A stretch of 64,000 nt of DNA, taken from positions 1 to 64,000 of the forward strand of contig JAUSCY010000027.1 in the NCBI GenBank assembly GCA_030650995.1. Reading direction: 5' to 3'. Below the pieces are notes generated by a model. The model searched no databases. It saw only the letters and a program-made list of their open reading frames with translations, and had not been told where the DNA came from. The position numbers and the translations under genes are program-made. Numbering within the stretch: position 1 is the stretch's first letter; the number at the start of each line of letters is the position of its first letter. The DNA comes from Sheuella sp. Its GTDB lineage: Bacteria > Pseudomonadota > Gammaproteobacteria > Burkholderiales > Burkholderiaceae_B. Below are positions 47,595-64,000 of the stretch, in pieces.

Positions 47595-48104
47595 ATGTCT
47601 GATCCTGATCTCGCCCTGCGTTTTACCGAACAAGAACTTGCCATGCTTGGCAAGACTGCCGATGGGCTGAGCGCCTATATGGGTAAGTCTGTTTTAGCTG
47701 AGGTGGGGGTCGACGATGACGCCGAATGGGTGATCTTCGCCATTCCAATCGGCACGGATGAAAAACCCGACGAGAATGCCATGCATGTGCAAATGGGCGG
47801 CCCGGGAGCAAGATTTGTCGGAAACCGGGGCGGACTGGATCTGGATAACGAATCTTATGATTGCCAGTATCTTTGGGCGATTCAGATCACCGCAGACCCC
47901 GAAGCTCGATTTGTCAGGCTGGATGATCAGGGTGAGGAGTTCGACTTTTCAAACGAATTGGGTGAATTGCTGCCCTTCGACATGAGTGAAGAAGACTTGC
48001 CAGACCCAGACCTCGAATTACTCGAAGATCTGGGTGAGGATGATGAGGATCTTCCTGAAATCGATGACGATGCCGAACTACGTCCTAAAGGACCTCTGCA
48101 CTGA
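47595..48104 (+). CDS. Acidic conserved hypothetical protein
   Basis: Encodes 169 residues from ATG 47595; an earlier in-frame ATG at 47565 would add ten. There is no signal peptide or membrane segment. Residues 1-120 look globular, with strand-like patches (VIFAIPIGT, then YLWAIQITAD). Residues 125-165 are extremely acidic (repeated DLPDPDLELLEDLGEDDED), giving a strongly negative tail. No family is recognised. The tail overlaps the convergent ABC ATPase gene by 20 bases. It may bind basic partners, but that is speculation. Confidence 0.75.
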   Translation: MSDPDLALRFTEQELAMLGKTADGLSAYMGKSVLAEVGVDDDAEWVIFAIPIGTDEKPDENAMHVQMGGPGARFVGNRGGLDLDNESYDCQYLWAIQITADPEARFVRLDDQGEEFDFSNELGELLPFDMSEEDLPDPDLELLEDLGEDDEDLPEIDDDAELRPKGPLH

Positions 48105-49119: not shown

Positions 49120-50090
49120 GCATGCTCCTGTTCAGTCTGCAACCAACAGGCCGCACTGGTTGCCCCTGTCTGAAACAGCAAGGGTCTTTCTACTTTGCAG
49201 CGTGGCATGACTTTCGGACAACGAGGATTAAATGCGCAACCTTGAGGAATAGCAGTGAGTCGCGGCATCGTGCCATCGATTTGCACCAGACGCTCGACGT
49301 GCTGATGCACTGAAGGGATGGAACCCATCAGCCCCACCGTATAGGGATGAGCAGGTGCGTGAATCACATCACGCACATTGCCGATCTCCGCAACACGTCC
49401 CGCATACATGACCACCACGCGATCGGCCGTCTCAGCGATCACACCCATATCATGCGTGATGAGCATGACTGCAGCGCCTTGTTCACGACAAAGTTTTTTA
49501 AGCAGATCAATAATCTGTGCCTGGATAGACACATCCAGAGCAGTGGTAGGCTCATCGGCCACAATCAGTTTGGGCTCAGCCGCAAGTGCCAGAGCAATCA
49601 CGACACGTTGGCGCATACCGCCAGAAAACTGATGAGGGTAGTGATCAATCCGTTCGCGTGCAGCGGGAATACCCGTGGACTCCAGCAATTCGATTGAACG
49701 CGTTCTCGCCTGCGACCAAGTCATCGGCAAATGCGTCACGATTGTTTCAGTGAGTTGGTGACCAACGGTATAGAGTGGATTGAGCGAAGTCAACGGGTCC
49801 TGAAAAATCGCACCAATTTCCCGGCCCCGTATATGTCGCATCTGATCGTCGGAAAGATTGTCGATACGGCGACCAGCCAGCAACACCTCGCCACTGGAGA
49901 TGCGTCCTGGCGGCTCAAGCAAACCAATGATGGCCGCACCGGTCAGTGATTTGCCGGCACCAGACTCGCCCACGACACCGACCACCTCGCCTGCAGAGAT
50001 CGAAAAAGATACTTCGTTCAACGCTTTTAAGGTGCCGCGTCGAGTCGGAAACTCAACACTTACCTCACGCAGTTCAAGAATAGTTGACAT
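49116..50090 (-). CDS. Dipeptide/oligopeptide ABC transporter ATP-binding protein (DppD-like)
   Basis: A 324-residue ATPase. Walker A is GESGAGKSLTGAAI, signature FSGGMRQRVVIALALA, Walker B LIVADEPTTALDVS. The C-terminal oligo_HPY domain has GCAFNPRCP. Start is ATG 50090 because GAGG lies six bases upstream; an in-frame TTG at 50102 would overlap the permease stop. It forms a heterodimer with the DppF-like protein on the inner membrane. Confidence 0.94.
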   Translation of the reverse strand: MSTILELREVSVEFPTRRGTLKALNEVSFSISAGEVVGVVGESGAGKSLTGAAIIGLLEPPGRISSGEVLLAGRRIDNLSDDQMRHIRGREIGAIFQDPLTSLNPLYTVGHQLTETIVTHLPMTWSQARTRSIELLESTGIPAARERIDHYPHQFSGGMRQRVVIALALAAEPKLIVADEPTTALDVSIQAQIIDLLKKLCREQGAAVMLITHDMGVIAETADRVVVMYAGRVAEIGNVRDVIHAPAHPYTVGLMGSIPSVHQHVERLVQIDGTMPRLTAIPQGCAFNPRCPKVMPRCKVERPLLFQTGATSAACWLQTEQEHA

Positions 50091-50098
50091 GCGTGACC

Positions 50099-51013
50099 TC
50101 AATTCAAACGTGGGTTAAGTGCGTCACGCAGCCAGTCACCCAGCAGGTTGACAGACAGCACCAGCAGCACCAATGCCGCACCTGGGAAAATCGTAATCCA
50201 CCACTCCCCAGAAAACAAAAAGTCATTGCCAATCCGGATCAGCGTTCCCAGCGAAGGTGATGTAGGTGGCACACCGACTCCGAGATACGAGAGTGTCGCC
50301 TCAGTAATGATGGCCGTAGCCAGGTGAACAGTAGCCAGCACCAGCACCGGCCCCAACACATTGGGCAGCACATGCCTGAACATAATGACAGGCGATGAAA
50401 TGCCGATTACGCGCGCGGCCTGAACATATTCGCGATTTTTTTCAACCAGTGTTGAGCCACGAACTGTTCGAGCGTATTGCGGCCAACCTGCCAGCGCAAT
50501 GGCTCCCACCAGAACTGGAAAAGCAATCACTTCATGCATGTCACCAGGCACCACCGCACGCGCGACGCCATCGATCAGCAGGGCGATCAGAATCGCAGGG
50601 AACGACAACTGCACATCTGCAACCCGCATAATCAGCGCATCAATCCGACCGCCTGCGTAGCCAGCGATCAGGCCGAGTACGATGCCAAGCGTCATCGCAC
50701 CCACCACAGCTGCCAGACCAATCAGTAACGACACGCGCGTGCCATACATCAGCGCGGATAAAAGATCCCGTCCCTGACTGTCCGTGCCCAACAGATACTG
50801 ACTTGTTCCCTCCACAGACCAGACAGGAGGCTTGAGTGCGTCCATCAGTTCGATACTGGCCAGATCAAAAGGGTTATAGGGTGCCAGCCAATCCGCACCG
50901 AAGGCGGCGATCAGCATGGATGCAAGCGCAAGCGTCGCCACAATCGCAACAGGGTGGTGTCGCCAGGACCAGGCCAGATCGCCATCCCAGAATTTAGCAA
51001 GAGAGTTAAGCAT
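50099..51013 (-). CDS. Dipeptide-type ABC transporter permease (DppC-like)
   Basis: A 304-residue permease with six helices. Its N-terminal OppC_N segment (WSWRHHPVAIVATLALASM) and the cytoplasmic EAA loop (YVQAARVIGISSPVIMFRH) that docks the ATPases are visible. LGTDSQGRDLLSALMYG is the typical DppC signature. It overlaps the DppB-like gene by one base, so both halves of the channel are translated together. The substrate is set by the binding protein at 52067-53638. Confidence 0.94.
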   Translation of the reverse strand: MLNSLAKFWDGDLAWSWRHHPVAIVATLALASMLIAAFGADWLAPYNPFDLASIELMDALKPPVWSVEGTSQYLLGTDSQGRDLLSALMYGTRVSLLIGLAAVVGAMTLGIVLGLIAGYAGGRIDALIMRVADVQLSFPAILIALLIDGVARAVVPGDMHEVIAFPVLVGAIALAGWPQYARTVRGSTLVEKNREYVQAARVIGISSPVIMFRHVLPNVLGPVLVLATVHLATAIITEATLSYLGVGVPPTSPSLGTLIRIGNDFLFSGEWWITIFPGAALVLLVLSVNLLGDWLRDALNPRLN

Positions 51014-52002
51014 CAGTGTCCCCCTCCTGATTTACCCAGACCCACACGTAGTCGCGGGTCTACCGCAAAATAAAGCAGATCAACACTCAGATTAATCAAC
51101 ACAAAAATCAGTGAAATCAGGCAAAGATAAGCCGCCATAACTGGAATATCGGCAAACTGAACTGCCTGTATAAACAGCAAGCCCATACCAGGCCATTGAA
51201 AAACTGTTTCAGTCACAATTGCAAAAGCAATGATGCCACCAAGCTGCAAACCCATGATGGTGATGACAGGAACCAGAGTATTTTTAAGCGCGTGACCGAA
51301 ATGAATCGCACGTTTGGTCAAGCCTCGCGCACGCGCAAATTTGATGTAGTCCGTGCGCAGGACTTCAAGCATTTCGGAGCGAACGAGTCTGAGCACAAGC
51401 GCGACTTGAAACAGTGACAACGTGATCGCAGGAAGAATCAAGTGCTGCCAGCCGCTCGCGGTCAGCAGCCCGGTCGACCACCAGCCCAACTGGATGGTAT
51501 CGCCCCGTCCGTAACTTGGTAACCATCCCAGAGAAACTGAAAACACAAGTATCAGCAAAATTCCGATCAGGAATGTTGGTAACGAAACGCCCAACAAAGA
51601 AAATGCCAGCAACGCTTGTGAAATTTTTCCATTCCGTCGCAGAGCAGTGTATACACCCAGCGGCAAGCCAGCGACTAGCGCGATCAGCGCGGCCGCAACG
51701 GATAGCTCAAGTGTGGCGGGCAGCTTTTCCCGAATCAACACAGAGACCTTTTGCCCTTGCCTCAGGGAGAGTCCGAAATCACCCTGCATGGCGTTCAAAA
51801 CAAAATGATAGAACTGCACGACGACCGGCTCGTTCAAACCTAGCTGCGTACGCAACAAGTCTCTTTCTGCAGGCGTGGCTTCCTGACCCAGCATGATCGT
51901 GACCGGATCACCCACATACTGAAACAGTACAAAGGCAATCAAGGCGACTGCCAGCATCACCCCAACAGCCTGAATCAAGCGGCGCAAAATAAATGCAAAC
52001 AT
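51013..52002 (-). CDS. Dipeptide-type ABC transporter permease (DppB-like)
   Basis: A 329-residue permease with six helices, the N-terminal FILRRLIQAVGVMLAVALIAF helix, a GLNEPVVVQFYHFV periplasmic loop and the EAA loop YIKFARARGLTKRAI. Length and pattern match DppB. It follows the solute-binding gene by 64 bases and overlaps the DppC-like gene by one base. It forms half of the inner-membrane channel. Confidence 0.94.
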   Translation of the reverse strand: MFAFILRRLIQAVGVMLAVALIAFVLFQYVGDPVTIMLGQEATPAERDLLRTQLGLNEPVVVQFYHFVLNAMQGDFGLSLRQGQKVSVLIREKLPATLELSVAAALIALVAGLPLGVYTALRRNGKISQALLAFSLLGVSLPTFLIGILLILVFSVSLGWLPSYGRGDTIQLGWWSTGLLTASGWQHLILPAITLSLFQVALVLRLVRSEMLEVLRTDYIKFARARGLTKRAIHFGHALKNTLVPVITIMGLQLGGIIAFAIVTETVFQWPGMGLLFIQAVQFADIPVMAAYLCLISLIFVLINLSVDLLYFAVDPRLRVGLGKSGGGH

Positions 52003-52066: not shown

Positions 52067-53638
52067 TTAATCGATCTTGATCCATTCGACAACAGGACGA
52101 TTATCCGCACGGTGCAATACATTCACATTCTTTTTCATGGCCCAGGGAATGATCTGGTCATGCAATGGAATCGCACCAAAGTCCTTGGCAAACAATGCGA
52201 GCGCTTCGTGAATCATCGCGGTACGCTTGGCATCGTCAGTTTCGGTTTTGATCGTGTCGATGAGTTTATCAACCTGTGGATTAGTGTAGTTTCCGTAGTT
52301 GAAAGAGCCATTTGCGCCCTCACCCTTGCTGTGAATCAACGCCTCAAGTGTGTAATACGCGTCATAGGTTGGCACGCCCCAGCCAAACAAATAAATGCTG
52401 GTGTCGTTATTACCGACTTTCGGGAAGAACGTCGCACGCGGCATGGCATTGAGTTTAGCTTTCACCCCCACCTTCGCCCACATGGCAACAATCGCCTGGC
52501 AGATCGCTTCGTCGTTGATATAACGATTGTTCGGGCAATCGAGCGTCACCTCGAAATTATTGTCATAGCCAGCCTCTTTGAGCAAGGCACGGGCTTTTTC
52601 CAGGTCGTAGGGAACACGCTTGCCGAGTTCTTTGGTGTAACCATTGACCTGTGGCGCAATCATCGTACCGGTCGGCAAGGACATGCCTCGCATCACAGAC
52701 TTCTTGATCGCTTCAATATCAATCGCACGATAGAGCGCTTCGCGCACACGCACATCGGCCAGTGGATTTTTACCCTTGATATTGCTGTACTTTAGCTCAG
52801 GACTCTTTTGATCCATACCAAGAAAAATCGTACGGTACTCGTTGCCATCGATGACTTTGACTTGCTGACGCAAACGATCCAGATCCTGTGCAGCCGGATC
52901 CAGTACGAAGTCCACCTCACCAGAAAGCAGGGCAGCAGTCCGGGTCGCACTTTGCTTGATCGGGGTGTAGATGATTTCCGTCACGTTACCGGTTTTGGTC
53001 GGTTTACCCCACCAGTCGGTATTTTCAACGTAGACGGTTTTGATATCGACTTCGCGCGATTTCAACTTGTACGGCCCCGTACCCATGGCATTGCGTGCCG
53101 AGTAGCTTTCTTCTTTCTTATTGAAATCCTGCGGGGCCATTGTGCCGTTTTTCTCGGACCAGGCCTTACTCATCATACCTAGTACAGGCAACTGACGCAG
53201 CAGAACAGGATTCGGGCCATTGGTTGAAATCTCAACCGTCAGTGGATCGATTGCACGAGCTTCTTTAATGCCGGCGGTATATGACTTGAATTGGGAAGAA
53301 GGCGCCATAGCGCGCTGAATCGAAAATACGACATCGTCAGCAGTAAAAGGCGTGCCATCATGAAACTTGACACCTTCACGCAGTTTGAAACGCCAGAGAG
53401 AAGGATTAACCTGCTCCCAGGAAGTTGCGAGGCCTGGAGTCACTTCGAATTTTTCGTTGTAACGGACCAGAGGATCATAGACCCAGAGGTTGGCCGCGAT
53501 GTTGAGCCCTTCATTCTGTGAATGCGGGTCAAGTGTCAGGATGTCGCCCTGGCTCGCCCATTTAAAAGTTTTGGCAACGCCTAGAGCGGGGAACAACATT
53601 GCAGCTGACACGGCAGCTGCGATCAAGGTGCGACGCAT
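52067..53638 (-). CDS. ABC transporter family 5 solute-binding protein
   Basis: A 523-residue periplasmic binding protein of the SBP_bac_5 family. The signal peptide covers about residues 1-22 (TLIAAAVSAAMLFPALGVAK). Mature signatures: WASQGDILTLDPHSQNEGLN, WRFKLREGVKFHDGTPF and FTADDVVFSIQRAM. It captures peptides or other ligands such as opines, nickel complexes or glutathione; the ligand is not readable. Start is ATG 53638 with GGGAG upstream; the open frame to 53695 crosses the leader and is rejected. It heads the DppBCDF-type operon and sits 98 bases after the CoA-ligase gene. Confidence 0.94.
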   Translation of the reverse strand: MRRTLIAAAVSAAMLFPALGVAKTFKWASQGDILTLDPHSQNEGLNIAANLWVYDPLVRYNEKFEVTPGLATSWEQVNPSLWRFKLREGVKFHDGTPFTADDVVFSIQRAMAPSSQFKSYTAGIKEARAIDPLTVEISTNGPNPVLLRQLPVLGMMSKAWSEKNGTMAPQDFNKKEESYSARNAMGTGPYKLKSREVDIKTVYVENTDWWGKPTKTGNVTEIIYTPIKQSATRTAALLSGEVDFVLDPAAQDLDRLRQQVKVIDGNEYRTIFLGMDQKSPELKYSNIKGKNPLADVRVREALYRAIDIEAIKKSVMRGMSLPTGTMIAPQVNGYTKELGKRVPYDLEKARALLKEAGYDNNFEVTLDCPNNRYINDEAICQAIVAMWAKVGVKAKLNAMPRATFFPKVGNNDTSIYLFGWGVPTYDAYYTLEALIHSKGEGANGSFNYGNYTNPQVDKLIDTIKTETDDAKRTAMIHEALALFAKDFGAIPLHDQIIPWAMKKNVNVLHRADNRPVVEWIKID

Positions 53639-53659
53639 TGGGTAACTCCCTAAGAAAAT

Positions 53660-53674
53660 TCCGTAATGTACGGA
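53660..53674. promoter_or_regulatory. Dyad TCCGTA-ATG-TACGGA before solute-binding gene
   Basis: A perfect 6-bp inverted repeat around a 3-base centre, 22 bases upstream of the binding-protein ATG. It may be an operator or a small leader hairpin controlling the transporter operon. Confidence 0.35.
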
Positions 53675-53735
53675 TATTGCCGCAGGGGAGGTCAAGCGTC
53701 AATCGCGATCACCAAACCAGTTAAAAAATAAGGGT

Positions 53736-55820
53736 TTACCCTTGTCTTTCGAGAAGAGCATCCACGACCTTGGCGCCCTCGCCAATCGAACCCACCATCA
53801 CCGGATTGAGGTCCAGGGACGCTATGTTGGGTCCTGCCGCCATAGCGATTTTCCCGACAGCGACCGCGATACTGGAAAAAGCGTCAACATCCATCGGCGC
53901 ATCGCCACGCACGCCATCGAGCATTGGAGCAAGACGCAGTCCACGCAGTGCACGCTCTACCTGCTCCGCGCTGAAGGGGGGTAAAAGCACGGCATAGTCT
54001 TTCATCGCTTCAACGTATTTGCCCCCAGCCCCAACCAGCACAACCGGTCCGAACACGGGATCAAAACGGGTGCCAACCATCAACTCGTGCTTGCCACGAC
54101 TCATCGCGGCAACAATCACTGCAGCACGCTTGACATTGAGAAGAGTGAGCTTTGCCATATGGGATTCAAATACTGATACAGCATCGTCAATATTGTTGAT
54201 CCCTAAAGTAACCAGGGCATGTTCTGTTTTATGGGGGACTTCTGCTGAACAGCCCTTAAGTGCCACGTTATTACCAAGCTTTACAAACGCAGCCCGAACC
54301 TGCTCGGCGCTGTGACACAGCACGTGTTCCACCACAGGCACACCATGTCTGGACAACAGCGCAAGGGACTGCGCCTCATCACAATACTGCTCGGTACCCG
54401 GCTGTATATCAACGGTGGGTAACGCAGGCCAGTGCGTAATCGTTTCACGCAACATCGCCGTGTGTGCGGCAAGCTGACCCAGTACGCCCACCGCATCACC
54501 TTCATTTTCAAAGGTGGCTACACCGGCCTGACGAAACGGTTCCGACACGGAGGCCTGCCAGGCGGCGACCGCAACAGGTTTTCCAGTCAAGGCCTCGAAT
54601 TGTGCGGTATCGCGCGCAAATGCTTGCACATCGTAACCAGCACCGGCCACAGGAATATTGATAAAAAACATATCGGCTGCAGGATCCTGCGCAACGCAGG
54701 GCAGGACTTCACTGAACAGACCGCTGTTGGACAAAAGCGCTGCGGTGATATCAATCGGGTTGGTGGTCGTTGCAAAGCCTGGCAATGATTTGGCGACAGC
54801 TTGTTGCGTAGACGCACTGAGCTTAGCCATCTCTAATCCGTTATCTTCTGCCGCGTCCGCTCCCATGACACAACTGGCTCCAGAATTGCTGATCACAACG
54901 AGCTTATTGCCCGCGGGACGCCAGCCCTTGAGGTAGGCCTCGGCAGCGAGTGCCTGCGCATGCGGATCGCGTACTCGCCAGATGCCATGTTTTTTAAAAA
55001 ATGCGTCAACTACGCGATCTTCATTGGCCATCGAACCCGTGTGCGTCGAGGCTGCTTGCTGACCACTTGCGCAGCGACCGGCCTTGACGGCAACGATAGG
55101 CAAATCGCGACTGCGTGCATATTCGGCCGTGCGTGCCAGCATCTCCGGATTAGCAATATTTTCCAGGTAGAGCAATATCAGTTTGATTTCAGGATCATGT
55201 GCGACGGCCCAGGCCATCTCCGAGACCGTCACATCCGCCTCATTTCCTGTAGCGTGCACATGTCGTACACCCAGGCCTTTCTGGCGCAACAAACCATACA
55301 CCATCGCGCTCATGCCGCCACTCTGACTCAGCACCGCGATAGGGCCATCCTGAGGCGGACATTCTATAAACATCGTTGAAAAACCTGCGATGACACCCGT
55401 ACCAAAATTTGCTAAACCATGTGTATTCGGACCGTAAATTCTCATGCCTGTCGCACGAGCAGCGTCCGTCATGCGCTGCTGTACGGCTCGACCCGCATCA
55501 TCGACTTCGCCAAAACCGGAGGCAATCACCACAACAGACTTCACACCTGTTGCCGCGCACTCCTCTACAGCCTCAAGAGCCTTCTCCCCAGCCACCACAA
55601 TCAAAACGAGCTCTGGTACTTCCGGCAGGCTCGCGAGGGAGGGGTAACTCTTTAAGCCCTGCACTTCCTCACGCGTTGGATTAACCGGATAAATCGTGCC
55701 GCTAAACCCGGCACGCTGCATGTAATAAATGGGACGACCACCTATCTTATGAATATTTTCAGAAGCACCAATAATGGCGACAGTGCGGGGATTTAAAGCA
55801 GATTCAAGCAAGTCAGACAT
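53736..55820 (-). CDS. NDP-forming acyl-CoA synthetase (acetate--CoA ligase family)
   Basis: A 694-residue fused synthetase. A CoA-binding domain (ALNPRTVAIIGASEN, then GRPIYYMQRAGFSGTIYPVNP) covers about residues 1-130. A succinyl-CoA-synthetase-like domain follows with the phosphohistidine region near STHTGSMANEDRVVDAF, and a C-terminal ATP-grasp part holds VLVGAGGKYVEAMKDYA. Such enzymes interconvert acyl-CoA, ADP and Pi with acid, CoA and ATP. It could activate the substrate or recover energy from the cleaved product of the island. Start is ATG 55820; a start at 55841 is less likely. Confidence 0.92.
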   Translation of the reverse strand: MSDLLESALNPRTVAIIGASENIHKIGGRPIYYMQRAGFSGTIYPVNPTREEVQGLKSYPSLASLPEVPELVLIVVAGEKALEAVEECAATGVKSVVVIASGFGEVDDAGRAVQQRMTDAARATGMRIYGPNTHGLANFGTGVIAGFSTMFIECPPQDGPIAVLSQSGGMSAMVYGLLRQKGLGVRHVHATGNEADVTVSEMAWAVAHDPEIKLILLYLENIANPEMLARTAEYARSRDLPIVAVKAGRCASGQQAASTHTGSMANEDRVVDAFFKKHGIWRVRDPHAQALAAEAYLKGWRPAGNKLVVISNSGASCVMGADAAEDNGLEMAKLSASTQQAVAKSLPGFATTTNPIDITAALLSNSGLFSEVLPCVAQDPAADMFFINIPVAGAGYDVQAFARDTAQFEALTGKPVAVAAWQASVSEPFRQAGVATFENEGDAVGVLGQLAAHTAMLRETITHWPALPTVDIQPGTEQYCDEAQSLALLSRHGVPVVEHVLCHSAEQVRAAFVKLGNNVALKGCSAEVPHKTEHALVTLGINNIDDAVSVFESHMAKLTLLNVKRAAVIVAAMSRGKHELMVGTRFDPVFGPVVLVGAGGKYVEAMKDYAVLLPPFSAEQVERALRGLRLAPMLDGVRGDAPMDVDAFSSIAVAVGKIAMAAGPNIASLDLNPVMVGSIGEGAKVVDALLERQG

Positions 55821-55887
55821 GAGGATTCCACAAATATTCAATAAAAAGCACGCTCAGCGTATAGAGCGTTCACAACAACAGGCCAAC

Positions 55888-55907
55888 ACTCAGTTTCGAA
55901 ACTGAGT
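55888..55907. promoter_or_regulatory. 20-bp perfect palindrome between DUF35 and CoA-ligase genes
   Basis: ACTCAGTTTCGAAACTGAGT reads the same on both strands with no loop. It lies three bases after the DUF35 stop and about 70 bases before the CoA-ligase start. Its uninterrupted symmetry suggests a protein-binding operator more than an RNA hairpin. Confidence 0.5.
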
Positions 55908-55910
55908 TTC

Positions 55911-56297
55911 TCAGGGGGTCAACTTTTCGAAACGAATTAAATTCTGACCAAGGTGATCGAAATAACTCGCCACGACAGGCTCACCGATCCGAACCCCTGC
56001 TGCAGCATGTCCCATCACCCGGGCACCCTCCTGCATCTCCACGACCACCAGGGTGTAAGGCGCAAGCGCTCGAAACGCATCGGAAGGAGCACGAGAAACG
56101 ACAGTCACTGCGTGCACCCGACCACGGCCAGAGGAAGTTTTCCATTCGAGGCGTTCTGCTCCGCAGTGCTCGCAGGCATCGTGGGCGAATGTCTGCGCGC
56201 GCCCGCACGTTGTGCAACTCTGAAAACGGATCTGATGATGAACCAGACCATCAAGATAAGGCTGAGCCAAAGACGCCTGCATATGTTCAGTTGACAT
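55911..56297 (-). CDS. DUF35 Zn-ribbon/OB-fold protein (thiolase partner)
   Basis: A 128-residue protein. The N-terminal rubredoxin-like zinc ribbon is C28-x2-C31 and C42-x2-C45. A C-terminal OB-fold covers about residues 55-128 (GRGRVHAVTVVSRA, then PYTLVVVEMQEGARVMGH). DUF35 proteins bind CoA esters and partner thiolase-fold enzymes: ChsH2-DUF35 with Ltp2 (aldolase), and others with HMG-CoA synthase or acetoacetyl-CoA thiolase in archaea. Here it is three bases from the thiolase gene, strongly implying a complex. Confidence 0.93.
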   Translation of the reverse strand: MSTEHMQASLAQPYLDGLVHHQIRFQSCTTCGRAQTFAHDACEHCGAERLEWKTSSGRGRVHAVTVVSRAPSDAFRALAPYTLVVVEMQEGARVMGHAAAGVRIGEPVVASYFDHLGQNLIRFEKLTP

Positions 56298-56300
56298 GTC

Positions 56301-57443
56301 TCAGGCCTCTCTGGATAAGATCAAACTAACGTGAGAGGACATGACACCTCCATCAGCATGGATAAAAGCATGCGTGGGCGCTTTAACCTGCCGTACACCT
56401 GCTTGTCCGGTAAATTGACGATAGGCTTCAACGCTGTGCGCCATGCCACCAGCCACACCGCAATGACCAAAGGACAATAAACCACCATGCGTATTCAAAG
56501 GTAATACGCCATGCTGACTAAAGTCCCCATTGCGCACACGTTGCGCAGCACCACCCCGTGCGGCAAAACCGATCTCTTCAAGCAACATAAGCAGTGTGAT
56601 GGTGAATGAATCGTAGATGCCCAGAAAATCAATATCCGATACTTGAAGACCTGCCTCGTTCAGCGCAATTTTCGAAGCCCTTGCCGCGCCACAATCCATC
56701 ACATTACGCATCGCAGTCAGGTGTTGATGCAAATGTGCCTGACCCGCACCGGACATTTTCACTTTCACGTCAGCACCAGGCACCGCCGAAACAATCAGTG
56801 CCATGGCTCCGTCCGAAATCGGACAGCAATCCATCAGATGCAGTGGCTCAGCAATCGGTTTGGATGCCAGTACATCAGCAATCGAAATCGGTGTTGTCAA
56901 ATGCGCGTCCGGATGACGAATAGCATTGTTACGCATCAATACAGCGAACTCAGCAAGATCTGCATTGGTTACGCCCGTCTCATGCATATAACGCGAAGCC
57001 ATCAAACCATAATAAGCGGGAACAGAAGCGCCGTTCGGCACTTCGAAATCAGCATGGCCGACTTGCGCCAGCGTCTGAATTGAACTGTCCCGCGTCTGAC
57101 CGCTCAGCCTGTTTTCACCTGCGACAACAAGCACGTTTTTGCAACGGCCTGTTCTGACCAGCTCACGCGCTAACATCAGCATCGCAGAACCTGTTGCTCC
57201 ACCGAGCTGCATACCATGCGCATAATTCGGGCGCAGTGCAAAACGCTCACAAAACAGTGTCGATATCATCAGGTGCGGCATCGTGGTTGAATATCCACAG
57301 AGCACCCCGTCAATATCCGAGCGCTTGAGTCCGGCATGCTCGAGTGCCTGCTTTGCTGCCTGAGCCATCAAATCTAAGGTACCGAGGCCTTCGAGACGAC
57401 CAAAAGGCGTATTACCTACACCGGTAATATATGCGTGATTCAT
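56301..57443 (-). CDS. Thiolase-fold protein lacking the canonical nucleophilic Cys (SCP2/Ltp2-like)
   Basis: A 380-residue thiolase-superfamily protein. The N-terminal half shows MNHAYITGVGNTPFGR and SDIDGVLCGYSTT. At the place of the usual active Cys (C-A/G-S/T-G) the sequence is LGGATGSAM (residues 80-88), with no Cys. The C-terminal half retains NTHGGLLSFGHCGVAGG with conserved His and Cys. Absence of the nucleophile, together with a DUF35 partner, is the pattern of Ltp2-type retro-aldolases and of lipid-transfer-like thiolases. It probably cleaves or forms a carbon-carbon bond on a CoA thioester. Confidence 0.88.
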   Translation of the reverse strand: MNHAYITGVGNTPFGRLEGLGTLDLMAQAAKQALEHAGLKRSDIDGVLCGYSTTMPHLMISTLFCERFALRPNYAHGMQLGGATGSAMLMLARELVRTGRCKNVLVVAGENRLSGQTRDSSIQTLAQVGHADFEVPNGASVPAYYGLMASRYMHETGVTNADLAEFAVLMRNNAIRHPDAHLTTPISIADVLASKPIAEPLHLMDCCPISDGAMALIVSAVPGADVKVKMSGAGQAHLHQHLTAMRNVMDCGAARASKIALNEAGLQVSDIDFLGIYDSFTITLLMLLEEIGFAARGGAAQRVRNGDFSQHGVLPLNTHGGLLSFGHCGVAGGMAHSVEAYRQFTGQAGVRQVKAPTHAFIHADGGVMSSHVSLILSREA

Positions 57444-57448
57444 TTCAC

Positions 57449-58444
57449 TTACTCAAGCTTGATGTTGTTCGTACGCGCGACCTTGGACCATTTCAAACCT
57501 TCCTGCTGAATAAATTGCGCAAATTGTGCGGGCGTGTCACCCACTGGCTCAGCGCCCAATTCAAAAAACTGTTTCGTAATTTCAGGGGTCCGCAAAATCG
57601 CCATCATGTTCGTACTGAGCGCATCAATCACTGGCTTAGGCGTTCCCGCAGGTGCAAGCAAACCAAACCAGGCCGATACGTCGTAACCAGCAACACCCGC
57701 TTCAGCCATGGTTGGAATTTCAGGTGCGCCAGGCCAGCGCTTAGTGGTCGTGACCGCGAGTGCTTTGACCTTACCCGCGCGAATGTAAGCCATCGAAGAA
57801 GGTAAGTTATCAATACCAATCGCAACTTGCCCACCCATCAGATCAATCAACATGGGCGAGCCGCCCTTGTAAGGCACATGAACAATATCGATCCCGGCAA
57901 GTGATTTAAATAACTCACCGCTCATGTGAGGCGAACCACCATGACTGGTTGAGCCGAAGTTGATTGTGCCGGGCTTGGCTTTTGCCAGAGCAATTAATTC
58001 CTGTACGTTTTGTACAGGCAGATTCACATTCGCAAGCAAAACATTTGGTGTACTGGCGACCAAAGTGATGGGTGCGAAATCCTTCACCGGATCGTAAGGA
58101 GGTGGAGTCTGTAATGCCGGGATAATCCCATGGCTCGCAATACTTGCAAAAATCAGAGTATGTCCATCAGGTGGGGATTTCGCAACGAGCTGCGAGCCAA
58201 TCACACCACCCGCACCAGGCTTGTTCTCAACCATCACCGTGCGACCCAGTCGTTCACCGAGCTTGGGGGCTATTGATCGGGCCAGCAGATCGGTCGTGCC
58301 GCCCGCAGGATAAGGCACAACAATGCGGATGGGGCGATCTGCAAAAACCTGCTGTGCAGCGACGGGAGTCCAGGGCACCACGCACGCTGAGGTGATCAAC
58401 GCAAATAGTGGGATATTTTTATATAACTTTTTCAGGACTGACAT
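57449..58444 (-). CDS. Bug/TctC family periplasmic solute receptor
   Basis: A 331-residue receptor. The signal peptide covers about residues 1-30 (NIPLFALITSACVVPWTPVA then AQQ). Signatures are IVVPYPAGGTTDLLARSIA and NKPGAGGVIGS, with VHVPYKGGSPMLIDLMGG further on. Start is ATG 58444, with GAGG six bases upstream. It lies inside the acyl-CoA catabolic island, six bases before the thiolase gene, so it probably senses or delivers the island's carboxylate substrate. No TctAB genes are nearby; many Bug proteins function as orphan receptors. Confidence 0.93.
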   Translation of the reverse strand: MSVLKKLYKNIPLFALITSACVVPWTPVAAQQVFADRPIRIVVPYPAGGTTDLLARSIAPKLGERLGRTVMVENKPGAGGVIGSQLVAKSPPDGHTLIFASIASHGIIPALQTPPPYDPVKDFAPITLVASTPNVLLANVNLPVQNVQELIALAKAKPGTINFGSTSHGGSPHMSGELFKSLAGIDIVHVPYKGGSPMLIDLMGGQVAIGIDNLPSSMAYIRAGKVKALAVTTTKRWPGAPEIPTMAEAGVAGYDVSAWFGLLAPAGTPKPVIDALSTNMMAILRTPEITKQFFELGAEPVGDTPAQFAQFIQQEGLKWSKVARTNNIKLE

Positions 58445-58456
58445 GTTGTGCCTCAC

Positions 58457-59539
58457 TTAGCGCGGGATTAAACGATTTTTTTGCATTAACTCTAACCAGT
58501 CATGCAAAGAGTCCTCGGTGTCGTAGCAATTCGCAAATCCATGCTGACGTAATTTGATGGGACTTAATACGGAATCAGCAAGATTCTCTGCACCATAACC
58601 AAGAGCGCGATCGGTAAACTCCCAGGAGCTTGAAATCAATTGCGCCAATGTATGGGATTTCAAATCGTATTTTTTAACGACCCTCTCCCACGTCGCTTCA
58701 TGCTTAGGCATGACCTCAGTCATACATAAAGGCACGTGCTCGCCAGCCTGCATACCAAAGCGCTCGGCAATCGAGCCCCAGATATCGGGCCAGACAAGTG
58801 AATCACCGTTCACGACGTTGTAAGTTTCGTTGGCGGCGATTTCATGTGTGGCGGTAAATTCAGCGGCCTGGGCAATCATGCGGCTGTCACTTGCACCATT
58901 AATGTAACGACCACCGCCAGGAAAATGCAAAGGTAAATCCTGCTCACGCATGACTGCCGCATAGGCACCTATCGCTGCGATAATATTCATCGGGCTTGAG
59001 ACTGCGTAACCAAAAACAATCTGCGGCCGCAAAATCGAAAAAGTCCATGCTGCAGTTTTTTGACGCTCGCGGATCAAATCTTCTTGTAACCAATAAAAAT
59101 TCTGATGCGCATGGCGAGGCCACCTCTCCTTGGCAGGGACCGGAGCAGGTTCCACATGACCGCCATAGGCCTTTGTTCCCTGCATGATCGTGATATGCCG
59201 TAAGCCTTTAGCCTGCGGCTCCACCGCATCAAGCAGATTCCTGAGCATGGCCTCATTGACAGCCATCTGTCTTGGATCACGCCAACCCGCTACCAGCTCG
59301 GGTAATTCAAACAAAGCCGCGAACAAGATATGCGTGACGTGCGTCAGTCCGGCGGCTGCGCTCTGGCATGCAGACAGATCCGTCAGGTCGACGCTCATGT
59401 GCTTTGCGCCGTCTGGTAACGCAACAGGTCGGCGCGAAAGGGCTATCACATCCCAGTCAGGCAAAGCCGCGAAGTGTTCGAGCGCTGCCGCACCCACCAC
59501 TCCACTGGCGCCAGCTATCAATATTGTGTGTTTTTTCAT
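58457..59539 (-). CDS. PRISE-type short-chain reductase (progesterone 5-beta-reductase/iridoid synthase-like)
   Basis: A 360-residue atypical SDR. The nucleotide motif is GASGVVG (residues 10-16). The PRISE catalytic pair is conserved: K123 in GTKAYG, and Y149 in NFYWLQED. This family reduces the double bond of alpha,beta-unsaturated carbonyls, including enones, enals and enoates, with NADPH. The presence of both signatures in a bacterial catabolic cluster suggests reduction of an unsaturated ketone intermediate. Start is ATG 59539; a start at 59563 is less likely. It precedes the Bug gene by 12 bases. Confidence 0.87.
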   Translation of the reverse strand: MKKHTILIAGASGVVGAAALEHFAALPDWDVIALSRRPVALPDGAKHMSVDLTDLSACQSAAAGLTHVTHILFAALFELPELVAGWRDPRQMAVNEAMLRNLLDAVEPQAKGLRHITIMQGTKAYGGHVEPAPVPAKERWPRHAHQNFYWLQEDLIRERQKTAAWTFSILRPQIVFGYAVSSPMNIIAAIGAYAAVMREQDLPLHFPGGGRYINGASDSRMIAQAAEFTATHEIAANETYNVVNGDSLVWPDIWGSIAERFGMQAGEHVPLCMTEVMPKHEATWERVVKKYDLKSHTLAQLISSSWEFTDRALGYGAENLADSVLSPIKLRQHGFANCYDTEDSLHDWLELMQKNRLIPR

Positions 59540-59566
59540 TTCACCCTCTCTGCCTGATAGCAATGA

Positions 59567-59920
59567 TTACAAGAGATGCTGACCACGCAACTGGCCACGC
59601 AAAGACTCTGGAACTTCGATCTCGAATCCAAGCACCGCCGCGGACAACGCCTTGCCATAGTTGTCCAGACACAGGCTACGTGAGACGCCACCACCCAGCG
59701 CCCCCTGAGCGACAAAGTTCATCGCATCCAGGTTATCCACCTCATAACGCGTGACGGGACCTTTGATCGCCCCGGCATAGAAGGCTTTGAATCGCTCTGC
59801 AGTCAGCTGATCCTTAAGCAAGACATACAACTCTGGAGTGTAGGCAAAGACGGCAATGTTTGAGGTGTCGCCCTTGTCACCTGACCGCGCATGCGCAACA
59901 TGCTGAAGTTTCACTTTCAT
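59567..59920 (-). CDS. AtuA-like small subunit (ferredoxin-fold domain)
   Basis: A 117-residue protein beginning HVAHARSGDKGDTSNIAVFAY, the conserved opening of the C-terminal domain found at the end of full-length AtuA-like proteins. It has GGGVSRSLCLDNYGKALS in the second half. In Pseudomonas AtuA this segment is fused to the large domain; here it is a separate gene three bases from the large part, so the two probably associate. Biochemical function is unknown. Confidence 0.88.
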   Translation of the reverse strand: MKVKLQHVAHARSGDKGDTSNIAVFAYTPELYVLLKDQLTAERFKAFYAGAIKGPVTRYEVDNLDAMNFVAQGALGGGVSRSLCLDNYGKALSAAVLGFEIEVPESLRGQLRGQHLL

Positions 59921-59923
59921 CGT

Positions 59924-61279
59924 TTAACTCACAAAATAATTGATGGAAGGTGTGACACGCTCGCGTGGCACCAGCGAAGACCATACGCCAATCACTTCGC
60001 GGGTACGGTCCTGATGAGGCACGCGCTTACCTGTATGCGCAACGCCAGATACTGCCATGCCGTCGATTTCACGTCCTATCTTGGCCGCTTCTTCGCGCGT
60101 CTTGGTACGCGCAGCAACACGCACTGCGATCTCGTAAGGTTCTGGTGCATCAGCAGGTGTCGCATCACCGTGAATGGCATTCAACCCCAGATAGTCAATG
60201 CGCACATCCTCGGCTTGCAAGTTGACGATCTTGAACCGCTCTTCCAGTATTTTTTTAGCTAGCTGCGCGCGCCGTAAAGCACCTGGCCCGGCATAGAAAA
60301 ACATATCTTCGCCAATAAATCCCTCGGTGCATCCAATTGATACCTTCAACGTTGGTGTGCGTGGCTTGCCGCCGATATGACTGACTTTGACGCGATCCGG
60401 TCCAACTTGCTCGATCTGCGCGGTTGTGAAATCCACCACAACGTCGGGAGTCAGATAGTTCGCAGGGTCGTGAACCTCATAGAGCATTTGCTCTTTGACG
60501 GTCTCCAGCGTCACTTGCCCACCGGTCCCGGCAACCTTTGTAATCACAGCACTCCCGTCGCGACTCACTTCTGCAATTGGAAAACCAAAAATCCATGGAT
60601 CAGGTACATCTTTGAAACCTGGATCTGAAAAATAGCCTCCCGTTACCTGCGCCCCACATTCAAGCAAGTGTCCCAGACCATTGCCCTGCCCCAGCTTCAC
60701 GTGATCAAGCGGATCCCATTCAAACTCATACATCATAGGAGCCATGAATATAGAGGGGTCTGCAACGCGTCCGGTGATGACGATCTGCGCGCCAGCCTTG
60801 AGCGCATCCACAATGGGCTCAGCACCCTGATAGACTTCCGCAGAAATCAGCGTGGACGTGAGTGTGGAGGTCGGTTTACCGTTCTCCAGAATCTTATCGG
60901 TCAGTTCCAGCACATGCTCGGTTATCAGGCTGCCATTAACCGAGGCGACTTTGACGCCTGTGTAACCAAACTCCTGAAGCCAGTGGACCACTCGCCGAGC
61001 CGCGGCATCAGGATTGATCCAGCCCTGGTTGGTGATGATTTTTGTGCCGCGTTTCATACAGTGCGGCAGAACCGCTTTCATCCGGTCGTCGAGATAAGTG
61101 TCGTAACCAGGAAAACTCGGATCACGGCGCGCGCGCACCTGCGCCGCAGAAACGGTTGCTTCGGCCATGGTCTCAAAGCACAGGTAATCCAGATCACCTT
61201 TTTCAGCATTCAAGGCAGCAGGCTCAACGCGATCCCCCCACCATGCAGCGCCAGAGCCAATTCTGATCGTATCCTTCAT
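59924..61279 (-). CDS. AtuA family large subunit (acyclic terpene utilisation, DUF1446)
   Basis: A 451-residue protein of the AtuA/DUF1446 family. Landmarks: the opening IRIGSGAAWWGDRVEPA, then YLCFETMAEATVS, GKPTSTLTSTLISAEVYQGA, ITGRVADPSIFMAPM and ECGAQVTGGYFSDPG. AtuA is required for citronellol/geranylate degradation in pseudomonads, but its exact reaction is unproven and many homologues sit in other acyl-CoA clusters. No atuB-H or liu genes are seen here. It is followed by the small AtuA-like subunit; a tandem T-tract repeat lies in its leader. Confidence 0.9.
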   Translation of the reverse strand: MKDTIRIGSGAAWWGDRVEPAALNAEKGDLDYLCFETMAEATVSAAQVRARRDPSFPGYDTYLDDRMKAVLPHCMKRGTKIITNQGWINPDAAARRVVHWLQEFGYTGVKVASVNGSLITEHVLELTDKILENGKPTSTLTSTLISAEVYQGAEPIVDALKAGAQIVITGRVADPSIFMAPMMYEFEWDPLDHVKLGQGNGLGHLLECGAQVTGGYFSDPGFKDVPDPWIFGFPIAEVSRDGSAVITKVAGTGGQVTLETVKEQMLYEVHDPANYLTPDVVVDFTTAQIEQVGPDRVKVSHIGGKPRTPTLKVSIGCTEGFIGEDMFFYAGPGALRRAQLAKKILEERFKIVNLQAEDVRIDYLGLNAIHGDATPADAPEPYEIAVRVAARTKTREEAAKIGREIDGMAVSGVAHTGKRVPHQDRTREVIGVWSSLVPRERVTPSINYFVS

Positions 61280-61291
61280 GTATCCCCCATT

Positions 61292-61320
61292 TTTAAACTT
61301 TTTTTTAAACTTTTTTAAAC
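61292..61320. repeat. Three TTTAAAC repeats with A/T tracts upstream of AtuA gene
   Basis: TTTAAAC occurs at 61292, 61304 and 61314, joined by T-tracts, in the 50-base gap between the IclR and AtuA genes. Spacing of 12 and 10 bases is close to one helical turn, so it could be curved DNA or a row of regulator sites. The -35/UP element of the AtuA operon would lie here. Confidence 0.6.
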
Positions 61321-61329
61321 TTTAATCAT

Positions 61330-62115
61330 TCAAATTTCTTGCAATTCATCCGTCTGATTTGGTACGGACGGATTCGATAATTCATACGCTACTTTTTTCA
61401 GAGCCGAAACCAGGAACTCTTTTCGACCAAGTATGCGATCACTTAATGCAGCCACACTCAAGGCTGCAAATGGACGACCATCGCGACCAAATACTGGAAC
61501 GCCCAGACCACCCATTTGTGCAACGACCACCTCAACCAGCATGGCATAGCCACGCTCGCGGGATCGGGCGACTTCTTCCTTAATGCTAATAAGACTCATG
61601 AGCGGATATCTCTGTGCAATCACGTTACGATTCAACTCCAGTACGGCATCGACTTCCTCGTCTGGCAACCAGGCCAGCAGCGCCATGCTTCCTGCGCCAA
61701 CGCCTAAAGGCCTGCGCATACCAAGATCAAGATAATTCGCCCGGATAGGGAAGCTGCCGAACTCGCGATCGATACAGACGGCTTCGCAGCCGCTGCGCGT
61801 CGATAACAGTACCGTATCGCCACACATTTCTGCCAATCGCAACAAAGCGGGACGTGCGCGATCCCTGATATGATCGCGGCCCTGCATCGCCAGACCTAGT
61901 GTGATGGCTTCATCACCCAGCGTGTATTTTTTTGTCAACGGATCGCGATGAACAAATCCCTCTTCCACCATTTCTTCCAGCAGACGTAGCGCCGTAGCCT
62001 TATTTACCCCAGACGCGCTTGCGATATCAGTCAGCCTGAGGTGTGTAGGTGTGGAAAGTGTCTTGAGAATGCGACAGACCTTCTGCGCAGCACTGCTGTC
62101 AGAAATCTGCCGCAT
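61330..62115 (-). CDS. IclR family transcriptional regulator
   Basis: A 261-residue regulator. The N-terminal HTH covers about residues 8-70 (LRLTDIASASGVNKATALRLLEEM). The effector domain has RSGCEAVCIDREFGSFPIRAN and SRERGYAMLVEVVVAQMGGLGVPVF. It lies between the cyclase-family gene and the AtuA operon, all on one strand, and so is the likely local regulator of the catabolic island. Its ligand is probably a pathway intermediate, by analogy with IclR-controlled aromatic and terpenoid operons. Confidence 0.92.
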   Translation of the reverse strand: MRQISDSSAAQKVCRILKTLSTPTHLRLTDIASASGVNKATALRLLEEMVEEGFVHRDPLTKKYTLGDEAITLGLAMQGRDHIRDRARPALLRLAEMCGDTVLLSTRSGCEAVCIDREFGSFPIRANYLDLGMRRPLGVGAGSMALLAWLPDEEVDAVLELNRNVIAQRYPLMSLISIKEEVARSRERGYAMLVEVVVAQMGGLGVPVFGRDGRPFAALSVAALSDRILGRKEFLVSALKKVAYELSNPSVPNQTDELQEI

Positions 62116-62118
62116 GAC

Positions 62119-63174
62119 TTACACCGTAGCGACTGCTGTGGAGGGTGAACCCACCGCGCCGGGCAGACGCAATGGAGGTGCTGTTAGCAGGAAACGATTG
62201 CGACCGTTCTTGCGCAACCACTGCGCCAGCGGCGTGAGGTAAAACATTTCACCGAGATGGATGCCGAGCTTGAACAGGCAATGCTCATGCAACGGCAGCG
62301 TTGCACAGCACCCAGCGTGCTTGGTTGCAGGATGCGCCTCTACAGCGTAGTTATCGGCCATCAGCACCACCAGATCACTATCGGTAATCCAGTTCAGAAG
62401 CTTTGAATCACGACCATCGAGCGCAGCGCAGCTATTGTCCAGAATGCTGAGATCTGGCTTTTTATTCATATCCAGCAACATCTGTGCAAAGCCGGTATGC
62501 AAGGCAACCATATCGCCTTTTTCGATCTCGACTTTATCCTGCTCGAGCACACGCATCATCGTGTCGTAATCAACGATCACTTTCTTATTACCGAAATGCG
62601 CATGAAAATCGATCATCACTCCGCGCCCCTGTACGCAGGACTCAGCCATATTCTGAATTCCCAGCGCCATGGCGTTGGAGGTTGATTTCTGATCGCCTGG
62701 TTCAGGCACCCCTGCATCCTTGCCTTCAGTAGGGCCGATGATATGTTCGCCTGCGCGATAACCGTTGTAATAGACCGCTTCAGGAAGTCCGTCACCATTC
62801 GCATCAAATAGCGAACCTACGTGCGCCAGGCTGTCCCACTGTGTCGAATACTGCAAATGCAAAACAACCAGATCATCACTCACTACATCGCTGTGATCTT
62901 TGTTGTCGCTGAACAATTTGTAATTCATATTCGGGCGACCGTTACGTAAGGTCGGACGAATCACTGGCGGATGCCTGCGAGGATTGAGCAAACTGCCACC
63001 AGGGAAATCGAGTGGCAAACTCAGGCAGAACGGTATCCCTTCTTTGACCTCAGCAATGCCTTGTTTGATCTTTTCGGGTGTCAGCAGATTAATCCGACCG
63101 CGCTGGTCGTCCTCACCAAAATCACCCCAGTTTGATCCCTCAGGACGATTGACCCATCTTTTTGACCCACTCAT
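62119..63174 (-). CDS. Cyclase-family (kynurenine formamidase-like) metal-dependent hydrolase
   Basis: A 351-residue protein of the cyclase superfamily. Instead of the classical HxGTHxDxxxH motif it shows STQWDSLAHVG (Gln-Trp in the first positions, with Asp and His kept). Later HPATKHAGCCATLPLHEHCL and FHAHFG provide further His/Asp. The longer N-terminal part and QWDxLxH form are typical of the large cyclase subfamily, whose members hydrolyse lactones, amides or ring bonds with Zn or Mn. The substrate is unknown. It overlaps the livF-like start by four bases, so it is co-translated with the ABC gene. Confidence 0.82.
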   Translation of the reverse strand: MSGSKRWVNRPEGSNWGDFGEDDQRGRINLLTPEKIKQGIAEVKEGIPFCLSLPLDFPGGSLLNPRRHPPVIRPTLRNGRPNMNYKLFSDNKDHSDVVSDDLVVLHLQYSTQWDSLAHVGSLFDANGDGLPEAVYYNGYRAGEHIIGPTEGKDAGVPEPGDQKSTSNAMALGIQNMAESCVQGRGVMIDFHAHFGNKKVIVDYDTMMRVLEQDKVEIEKGDMVALHTGFAQMLLDMNKKPDLSILDNSCAALDGRDSKLLNWITDSDLVVLMADNYAVEAHPATKHAGCCATLPLHEHCLFKLGIHLGEMFYLTPLAQWLRKNGRNRFLLTAPPLRLPGAVGSPSTAVATV

Positions 63175-63938
63175 ATACTTTTCTCCAACGCAGACAACGG
63201 CTCACCACCGCCAAGAAATACTCTATGTAATAAATCACCCTGACCGATCTCGGTAGAGGACGCCGCAGCAGCCACACGACCGGTTTCCATCAGGAATGCA
63301 AAATGTGCGTGCTTGAGCGCTTTTTCAACAAGCTGCTCAACCAGCAGAATAGCCAAACCTTTTGCGCATAATTCAGAGGCAACTGTCAGGATACGATCAA
63401 CCACCATAGGCGCCAGACCGGCTGAAGGTTCATCAAGGATCAACAGTTTGGGCTCACCAATCACACCTTGTGCGACTGCCAGAATTTGTTGTTGTCCGCC
63501 CGATAACCTTGAAGCCATCTGCTGTTTGCGCTCGGCGAGCTCTGGAAATAATTCATAAATTTCTTCCAGTTTGCTTCGATCACCACGCGGTGATTTCGCA
63601 TAGGTGCCGATCATCAGATTATCTTCGACCGTCAGTGTTTGAAAAACGCGATGTCCTTCAAGGACCTGAACAATTCCTGACTGAACGATCTGCCTCGGAC
63701 TCGCCTGAGTGAGGTCTTGTCCGGAGAAGCTCACGCTACCACTGCGCTTTGGGATCAGACCTGAGATCGCATGCATCACTGTGCTTTTTCCGGCACCGTT
63801 GCGACCAAGAACCACTACGAATTCACCGGCACGGACGTCCATGGACAAGCCGTGAACAACCTCTGCCTTGCCATATGCGACATGTAAGTCACGCACACTC
63901 AGCAATACCTCTTCGGGTCGGGAAGAATGATTATTCAT
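63171..63938 (-). CDS. Branched-chain amino acid-type ABC transporter ATP-binding protein (LivF-like)
   Basis: A 255-residue ATPase. Walker A is LGRNGAGKSTVMHAI, signature LSGGQQQILAVAQG, Walker B LLILDEPSAGLAP. It matches LivF-type subunits of HAAT-family importers, which in Burkholderiales often carry aromatic acids, amides or other carboxylates rather than leucine. Its final four bases overlap the cyclase start, tying uptake to the first catabolic step. Confidence 0.93.
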   Translation of the reverse strand: MNNHSSRPEEVLLSVRDLHVAYGKAEVVHGLSMDVRAGEFVVVLGRNGAGKSTVMHAISGLIPKRSGSVSFSGQDLTQASPRQIVQSGIVQVLEGHRVFQTLTVEDNLMIGTYAKSPRGDRSKLEEIYELFPELAERKQQMASRLSGGQQQILAVAQGVIGEPKLLILDEPSAGLAPMVVDRILTVASELCAKGLAILLVEQLVEKALKHAHFAFLMETGRVAAAASSTEIGQGDLLHRVFLGGGEPLSALEKSI

Positions 63939-63941
63939 TAT

Positions 63942-64000
63942 TTATGCTCCGAGGTAGACACGAATAACTTCCGGATCGTGACGGACTTCCTCAGAAGTGC
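63942..64000 (-). CDS. LivG-like ABC ATP-binding protein, C-terminus (partial)
   Basis: The window ends inside this gene. The visible frame ends SEEVRHDPEVIRVYLGA followed by stop, the characteristic LivG C-terminus. It lies three bases upstream of livF on the same strand. The rest of the operon (permeases and binding protein) should follow outside the window. Confidence 0.85.
   Translation of the reverse strand, partial: TSEEVRHDPEVIRVYLGA

Follow-up and report, generated by a model that had tools for sequence, protein, structure and literature searches.

A conserved operon of Sheuella and related Burkholderiales whose AtuA pair resembles citramalate lyase

Citramalate lyase, which releases acetate upon cleaving citramalate, is represented in the PDB by entries 9erq and 9evf, the larger chain of which is named “Acyclic terpene utilization AtuA family protein | Citramalate lyase, subunit A (cmlA)” and the smaller one, of the DUF4387 family, “Citramalate lyase, subunit B (cmlB)”. 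In E. coli O157, ECs_0760 is a near-identical counterpart of chain A (456 residues) and ECs_0759 a match to chain B; both of these genes stand in a row with those of methylaspartate ammonia-lyase and glutamate mutase, with the fumarase gene ECs_0757 one transport gene further. C5 hydroxy-dicarboxylate chemistry of a similar kind is found in itaconate degradation by a RipC-type citramalyl-CoA lyase. The paper on the fumarase (mesaconase) noted the DUF1446 gene as one of not known function (PMC4682846), a lyase role with release of acetate was earlier put forward for AtuA as speculation (PMC9973270) and given as annotation in Thauera (PMC4847356), thiolase-fold enzymes partnered by DUF35 proteins cut C-C bonds (PMC12329534), and phloroglucinol breakdown involves DPGC, a retro-Claisen hydrolase of the cyclase family that follows a reductase and opens a cyclic diketone (PMC10470551). 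The locus considered here lies on the minus strand of a Sheuella sp. contig (JAUSCY010000027.1; 94,989 bases of a 3.13 Mb assembly, bases 1-64000 of which made up the window analyzed) and combines an AtuA pair with genes for uptake, an IclR-family regulator, a PRISE-type enone reductase, a cyclase-family protein, a thiolase-fold/DUF35 pair and a CoA ligase. We tentatively read it as an IclR-controlled operon that would import and degrade a small oxygenated carboxylic acid, perhaps a cyclic and/or unsaturated one, with AtuA freeing acetate from a tertiary hydroxy acid. No description of the gene set or of CmlAB was met by title and beginning of abstract in the literature searched (part of this searching was weak, being swamped by unrelated words), in agreement with an earlier sequence-only reading of the locus, according to which no named pathway is known to have this exact set.

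The large AtuA subunit (59924-61279, minus strand) is matched by PF07287 at 479.9 bits over residues 5-447, i.e., over the whole subunit, and gave a single weak match against the PDB by sequence (about 70 residues, E 0.0032, or 8.4e-5 with a profile), namely to the above-mentioned 9erq/9evf, which makes citramalate lyase the sole AtuA homologue found there. Its AlphaFold model, built from 23 aligned sequences (mean predicted local distance difference test score, pLDDT, of 82.5; the two subunits were modelled separately), had chain 9evf_A, from a complex of citramalate lyase with ADP and pyruvate, as its Foldseek match (E 2.3e-26, TM 0.72, root-mean-square deviation, rmsd, of 6.0), the only PDB match below 0.001, as the next one stood at E 0.012. 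The small subunit (59567-59920, minus strand; PF23544) found no match in a sequence and profile search of the PDB, and its model (pLDDT 87.7) matched 9evf_B at E 1.7e-4 (TM 0.60, rmsd 4.1), again with no other match below 0.001. What is shared with CmlA/CmlB, then, is the two-gene arrangement, a small subunit of 105-117 amino acids, both folds, a hhalign probability of 99 between the large-subunit profiles and 21 positions that are invariant across 14 AtuA and three CmlA-type sequences (R171, D174, E207, C208, Y267, E268 and K312 among them), which may form the active site; what differs is the family of the small subunit and the neighbourhood, as glutamate mutase and methylaspartate ammonia-lyase are absent from the operon. 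The same genome holds a second AtuA pair accompanied by a Bug gene (locus L002, 1486-3230, contig C137; large subunit about 41% identical), and a further AtuA match (G084:C68:992-2275) has one internal TGA and one TAG, possibly being a decayed copy.

The neighbours of this AtuA pair recur around AtuA in other genera, which is more than chance would give. A scan of genome contigs with the large subunit yielded 235 relatives, the best 80 loci of which were kept (L numbers below), and their genes were clustered from a codon-scored set of open reading frames (ORFs) that missed genes in some loci, so that presence was recounted by tblastn at no less than 35% identity and 50% coverage; as contig ends cut many of the loci, the counts are lower bounds. 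The small subunit was present in 79 loci, the Bug receptor in 53, the thiolase-fold protein and DUF35 in 36 each, the ACD-type CoA ligase in 33, the cyclase in 31 and PRISE in 28, followed by LivH and LivMG (24 each), LivF (22), LivK (21) and IclR (20). The thiolase-fold/DUF35/ligase trio was complete in 32 of the 80 loci and all five other enzymes (i.e., the trio, cyclase and PRISE) in 14, the set being found again in Burkholderiales and in a few alphaproteobacteria. Sheuella amnicola, Zwartia and Jezberella are the closest genus-named AtuA relatives among these best 80, which suggests that the genome is that of an Alcaligenaceae-type betaproteobacterium, and four loci (L015, L016, L036 and L054) come from metagenome-assembled genomes (MAGs) titled Bordetella parapertussis, a species name that looks wrong, with L015 and L016 adjoining Zwartia-like relatives by identity. 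Gene order differs from locus to locus (LIV-cyclase-IclR-thiolase-DUF35-ACD-AtuA-AtuA small-PRISE in L026, L044 and L053; trio and AtuA divergent in L031, L036, L047, L072, L074 and L078), which argues for selection on the set rather than for one block inherited as such. Starting from the cyclase, 60 other matches were found in 349 genomes of the order, 15 of them at 66% identity or more (one, G126, being a contig-end fragment), and eight of these 15 had an AtuA match (E no higher than 1e-150) within 6 kb, vs. none of the remaining 45; for one of the latter (G005), a more distant member of the AtuA family is encoded about 7 kb away. Clusters foreign to the operon reach at most six loci (GAPDH-like), except for a LysR regulator in 13; the GAPDH-like cluster and a transketolase-like one (five loci), so named by our own reading, are presumably chromosomal neighbours, and no additional catabolic enzymes of the type of acyl-CoA dehydrogenases, hydratases or carboxylases figure among the 40 most frequent gene clusters. 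The island is a real and conserved uptake-and-catabolism unit with its own IclR gene, as had been proposed from the sequence.

Within 53736-64000 of the window there are ten complete ORFs on the minus strand, with an eleventh truncated by the window edge, all co-directional, with gaps of no more than 69 bases among the ORFs as listed (the largest being slightly bigger if the ACD gene begins at an internal ATG), and the genes named in the sequence-only reading, its single IclR gene, Bug receptor and LIV-type importer included, are present and in order, families having been assigned by Pfam and NCBIfam scans. The run is longer than that reading had it, extending upstream to LivK (contig position 67785) and downstream to DppF (48085). 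On the upstream side, the gene cut by the window edge encodes a fused LivM-LivG ATP-binding cassette (ABC) permease/ATPase (3' end at 63942-64000, full ORF at contig 63942-65756), which together with the ATPase LivF (63171-63938) within the window and LivH (65728-66588) and LivK (66604-67785) beyond it makes up a LIV importer, all on the minus strand; the solved structures nearest to LivK are mostly named amino-acid receptors, so the ligand is not indicated by them. On the downstream side, the gene for a family-5 solute-binding protein (SBP5; 52067-53695) is followed by those for the permeases and ATPases of a Dpp/Opp-type ABC system (DppB, C, D and F; 48085-52002; B and F by Pfam), which are linked in Alcaligenaceae-like loci; these genes, too, are on the minus strand. 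A Bug/TctC solute receptor (57449-58456, minus strand; Pfam/NCBIfam) stands between the genes for PRISE and the thiolase-fold protein. Beyond the operon, what we take to be a uvrA-like gene starts in the opposite direction at contig position 68289, and between the two lies a minus-strand ORF for a basic protein of 43 amino acids (contig 68058-68186), 95-98% identical in ten related loci and followed by two hairpins, i.e., a conserved small protein. Further along the contig (75704-79856), a second minus-strand cluster holds a D-2-hydroxyacid dehydrogenase and an RraA-like aldolase together with what we take, by our own reading, to be a Bug receptor and an FMN-type hydroxyacid dehydrogenase; an RraA gene is also found near AtuA in Comamonas endophytica.

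Control by the IclR-family regulator (61330-62115, minus strand; Pfam/NCBIfam) seems likely, the candidate operator being TTTTGTC-N-GACAAAA, which is located some 130-150 bases ahead of LivK in the contig of the window (67913-67933), L005 and L023, and twice before the cyclase, there the first gene, in L006, these being the four in which a close IclR (79-85% identity) is present. Allowing for no more than one mismatch, five matches were found in the 1.78 Mb of sequence fetched, all of them before the first operon gene of the close-IclR loci, and we infer from this distribution that the palindrome is the IclR operator. Five more matches with two mismatches occur in L075 (113 bases before the cyclase), L043, L019, L047 and L051, and L017 and L020, in which LivK is present and no IclR was found, do not have the motif. 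The L043 copy (position 438) lies about 270 bases before an IclR gene, in a MAG that carries the label Desulfovibrionaceae and has an AtuA with 83% identity to that of the window. The two dyads or repeats that the sequence-only reading had considered IclR-compatible do exist, namely a perfect 20-bp palindrome between the DUF35 and ACD genes (55888-55907) and three copies of the 12-mer TTTTTAAACTTT before the large AtuA subunit (61290-61323); neither is at the same place in the relatives compared, and this lack of conservation probably rules them out as operators.

The minus-strand genes downstream encode a thiolase-fold protein (56301-57443), its DUF35 partner (55911-56297; OB_ChsH2_C and zf-ChsH2) and an NDP-forming, ACD-type acyl-CoA ligase (53736-55841). 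The best PDB matches of the thiolase-fold protein are 4u4e, 9myr and 6ok1, of which the last is identified here as Ltp2, as Tyr294 (in YDHF) and Tyr344 sit where PMC12329534 puts them, and 9myr as Sal, as the YDCY motif and glutamine described there recur at a constant offset of 24, the PDB names being silent in both cases. According to that same source, the catalytic residues are Tyr302 and Cys304 in Sal and Tyr294 and Tyr344 in Ltp2. The protein shares with them the thiolase fold, a DUF35 partner, the tyrosine of a YDxF/Y motif and the lack of the N-terminal nucleophile cysteine of thiolases, the segment in question reading GGATG in eight of eight aligned sequences, a block that is conserved in the 37-row alignment. 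It differs from them in that neither YDCY nor YDHF was found, YDSF being present in 37/37 rows (and GHCG in 36/37), in His327 standing for Gln352 of Sal and Tyr344 of Ltp2, in a DUF35 protein that is not fused to a MaoC domain and in the adjoining CoA ligase. With these motifs and the nucleophile cysteine missing, the protein is not a classical thiolase, and an aldolase- or retro-Claisen-type reaction of the pair on a CoA ester is the likelier activity. The previously proposed action of a DUF35-thiolase pair on CoA thioesters stays plausible even if the enzyme class does not. The domains CoA_binding_2, Succ_CoA_lig and ATP-grasp_5 of the ligase all score over their cut-offs; as regards acetate as a possible substrate, its matches to TIGR02717 and NF045494 are below theirs.

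Lysine and tyrosine of the GTKHY and NFYY motifs are catalytic in 5-beta-reductases. The PRISE-type protein (58457-59563, minus strand; Pfam), which matches 5-beta-reductases and iridoid synthases, has GTKAYG and NFYW aligned with these motifs of the 5-beta-reductase 6el3, which, together with the ligase domains, upholds the enone-reductase and CoA-ligase parts of the sequence-only reading. The cyclase-family protein (62119-63174, minus strand) matches PF04199 at 37.2 bits, over the cut-off, and its sole PDB match is 5ibz, an uncharacterised protein.

Among the 175 plasmid records with an AtuA match, 16 chosen regions were viewed, of which one was unannotated, two were of the DUF4387 type and 13 were annotated and not of that type. 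In four of these 13 (Azospirillum B510, Mycetohabitans, Roseomonas and Paraburkholderia; CitMHS domain confirmed), a citrate:proton symporter gene is directly upstream of AtuA, and eight more are flanked by TTT receptors (four), LIV importers (two), a TRAP transporter (one) or another ABC importer (one), a transporter gene thereby neighbouring AtuA in 12 of 13, with Sphingobium, where none is directly beside it, as the exception. Such citrate symporters, and the methylaspartate-pathway genes beside the E. coli pair, suggest polar acids. In Salipiger, AtuA is near CoA transferases and a RipC/CitE-like lyase (below the curated cut-offs), which recalls itaconate degradation, none of the genes of which are in the operon of the window. 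A beta-propeller gene follows the small AtuA subunit in L031 (11943-12905), L036 (14327-15289), L042 (10928-11893) and L089 (15710-16657), the protein being of the NHL type in three related loci (one by Pfam) and of the SMP-30/gluconolactonase type in Methylobacterium; its position could hint at a lactone substrate.

Given the gene order and its conservation, the family memberships, the CmlAB homology of the AtuA pair and the conserved palindrome, the pathway might run as follows, the order of the steps being a guess. The substrate would be taken up by the LIV importer, perhaps aided by Bug or Dpp; PRISE would reduce a C=C bond adjoining a carbonyl; and the cyclase-family protein would open a ring or hydrolyse an acyl bond. 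The AtuA pair, acting as a citramalate-lyase-type enzyme with a nucleotide, would cleave HOOC-CH2-C(OH)(R)R', giving acetate or acetyl-phosphate along with a ketone or oxoacid; the CoA ligase would turn either the acid that remains or the acetate set free into an acyl-CoA; and that acyl-CoA would be cleaved by the cysteine-less thiolase-fold/DUF35 pair, in the manner of an aldolase or by a retro-Claisen-type step. The piece HOOC-CH2-C(OH)(R)R' is what citramalate and the thioester of terpene AtuA would have in common, both releasing acetate, and may serve as the unifying link. It is conceivable, if rather doubtful, that the whole AtuA family consists of nucleotide-dependent lyases taking acetate off tertiary beta-hydroxy acids, with citramalate lyase, terpene AtuA and this operon (i.e., an undescribed pathway in which an enone reductase and a ring-opening enzyme feed the lyase, followed by cysteine-less thiolase-fold/DUF35 cleavage) as three cases of it.

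Several observations weigh against the pathway so drawn. The large AtuA subunit shares only some 21% identity with the CmlA-type protein, which, along with the rmsd of 6.0 (large) and 4.1 (small), means that the substrate may differ from citramalate; the small subunit reaches a hhalign probability of 12 against the DUF4387 profile, Pfam giving PF23544 only. Hydrolytic cyclase-family members of the isatin hydrolase/DPGC type have an HxGTHxDxPxH metal motif, and the protein of the operon has QYSTQWDS (residues 108-115, 32 of 32 rows) in place of HxGTHxD, so that its hydrolase activity is predicted at most. In Zwartia hollandica (L014), the order is cyclase-AtuA-Bug-SBP5-Dpp, with cyclase and AtuA kept and PRISE, thiolase and CoA ligase missing, i.e., the parts are not all needed together. 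With PRISE as the start, none of the 11 other matches in the 349 genomes (39-53% identical) was near AtuA, and among the 26 matches to PF22917 that 120 genomes gave, the window's own was the single one near AtuA, which rules PRISE out as a marker of the operon. Calling the route complete, as the sequence-only reading did, is not borne out.

The alternative that survives best, even so an unlikely one in our view, is that two pathways share one operon, namely an AtuA lyase module (the AtuA pair and Bug, sometimes with LIV or cyclase) and an independent acyl-CoA module (thiolase-fold protein, DUF35, CoA ligase and IclR). Reduced loci consisting of LIV and AtuA or of LysR-AtuA-Bug, without the remaining genes, would fit it, as would the lower median identity of thiolase (60%), DUF35 (47%) and ACD (54%) vs. 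AtuA (82%) where they are present, and the divergent orientation of the two modules in Methylobacterium and Comamonas endophytica. The presence of the trio near AtuA in as many as 32 of the 80 loci, in several arrangements and in alphaproteobacteria too, argues for one purpose instead.

Somewhat less probable still would be a route resembling phloroglucinol breakdown, in which PRISE would reduce a cyclic enone, the cyclase would open the ring by DPGC-like C-C hydrolysis, the CoA ligase and the thiolase-fold/DUF35 pair would cut the resulting oxoacid and AtuA would handle a side product. The anaerobic phloroglucinol cluster (PGR, DPGC, TfD and TAL; PMC10470551) does share with the operon a reductase, a cyclase-family protein and a logic of C-C cleavage, DPGC acting after a reductase and PRISE belonging to a reductase family, and the C-C bond cutting by DUF35-partnered thiolase-fold enzymes (PMC12329534) would suit the last step. 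The operon has PRISE in place of PGR, a non-canonical cyclase motif and no TAL-type cleavage enzyme, however; several loci hold cyclase and AtuA without PRISE; and AtuA would be left without a central role (the loci having been chosen by AtuA, it should be said).

A terpenoid-type substrate with AtuA in its terpene role, towards which the sequence-only reading leaned, is very improbable and was rejected as the leading reading. It has in its favour the Pfam name of AtuA, the resemblance of PRISE to 5-beta-reductases and iridoid synthases and the lyase role speculated in PMC9973270 and annotated in PMC4847356, and the Pseudomonas atu cluster is alike in having an AtuA-family gene for such a speculated acetate-releasing lyase. 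The operon, however, is without atuB-H, i.e., without geranyl-CoA carboxylase and the atu-kind dehydrogenase (AtuD) and hydratase (AtuE), and without the TetR-type regulator AtuR, having transporters and IclR instead and the large and small AtuA parts as separate genes; no such atu genes are among the 40 most frequent clusters of the related loci, some loci combine a close AtuA orthologue (about 80%) with no more than a transporter and a regulator, and both the polar-acid contexts and the sole PDB homologue, citramalate lyase, point elsewhere. A steroid side chain, considered on account of the likeness of PRISE and the thiolase-fold protein to steroid enzymes, was dismissed, there being no steroid-type gene cluster among those same 40.

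Returning to the citramalate-lyase-type reading, its meaning goes beyond this operon, as members of the AtuA family (E no higher than 1e-20) are encoded in 33 of the 120 genomes scanned from the order, and they carry terpene names in sequence records (e.g., those of plasmids), many of which annotations the citramalate-lyase link would correct. The link of both subunits would, moreover, offer this common family a testable chemistry and indicate which class of substrates to try for an operon that many Burkholderiales have.

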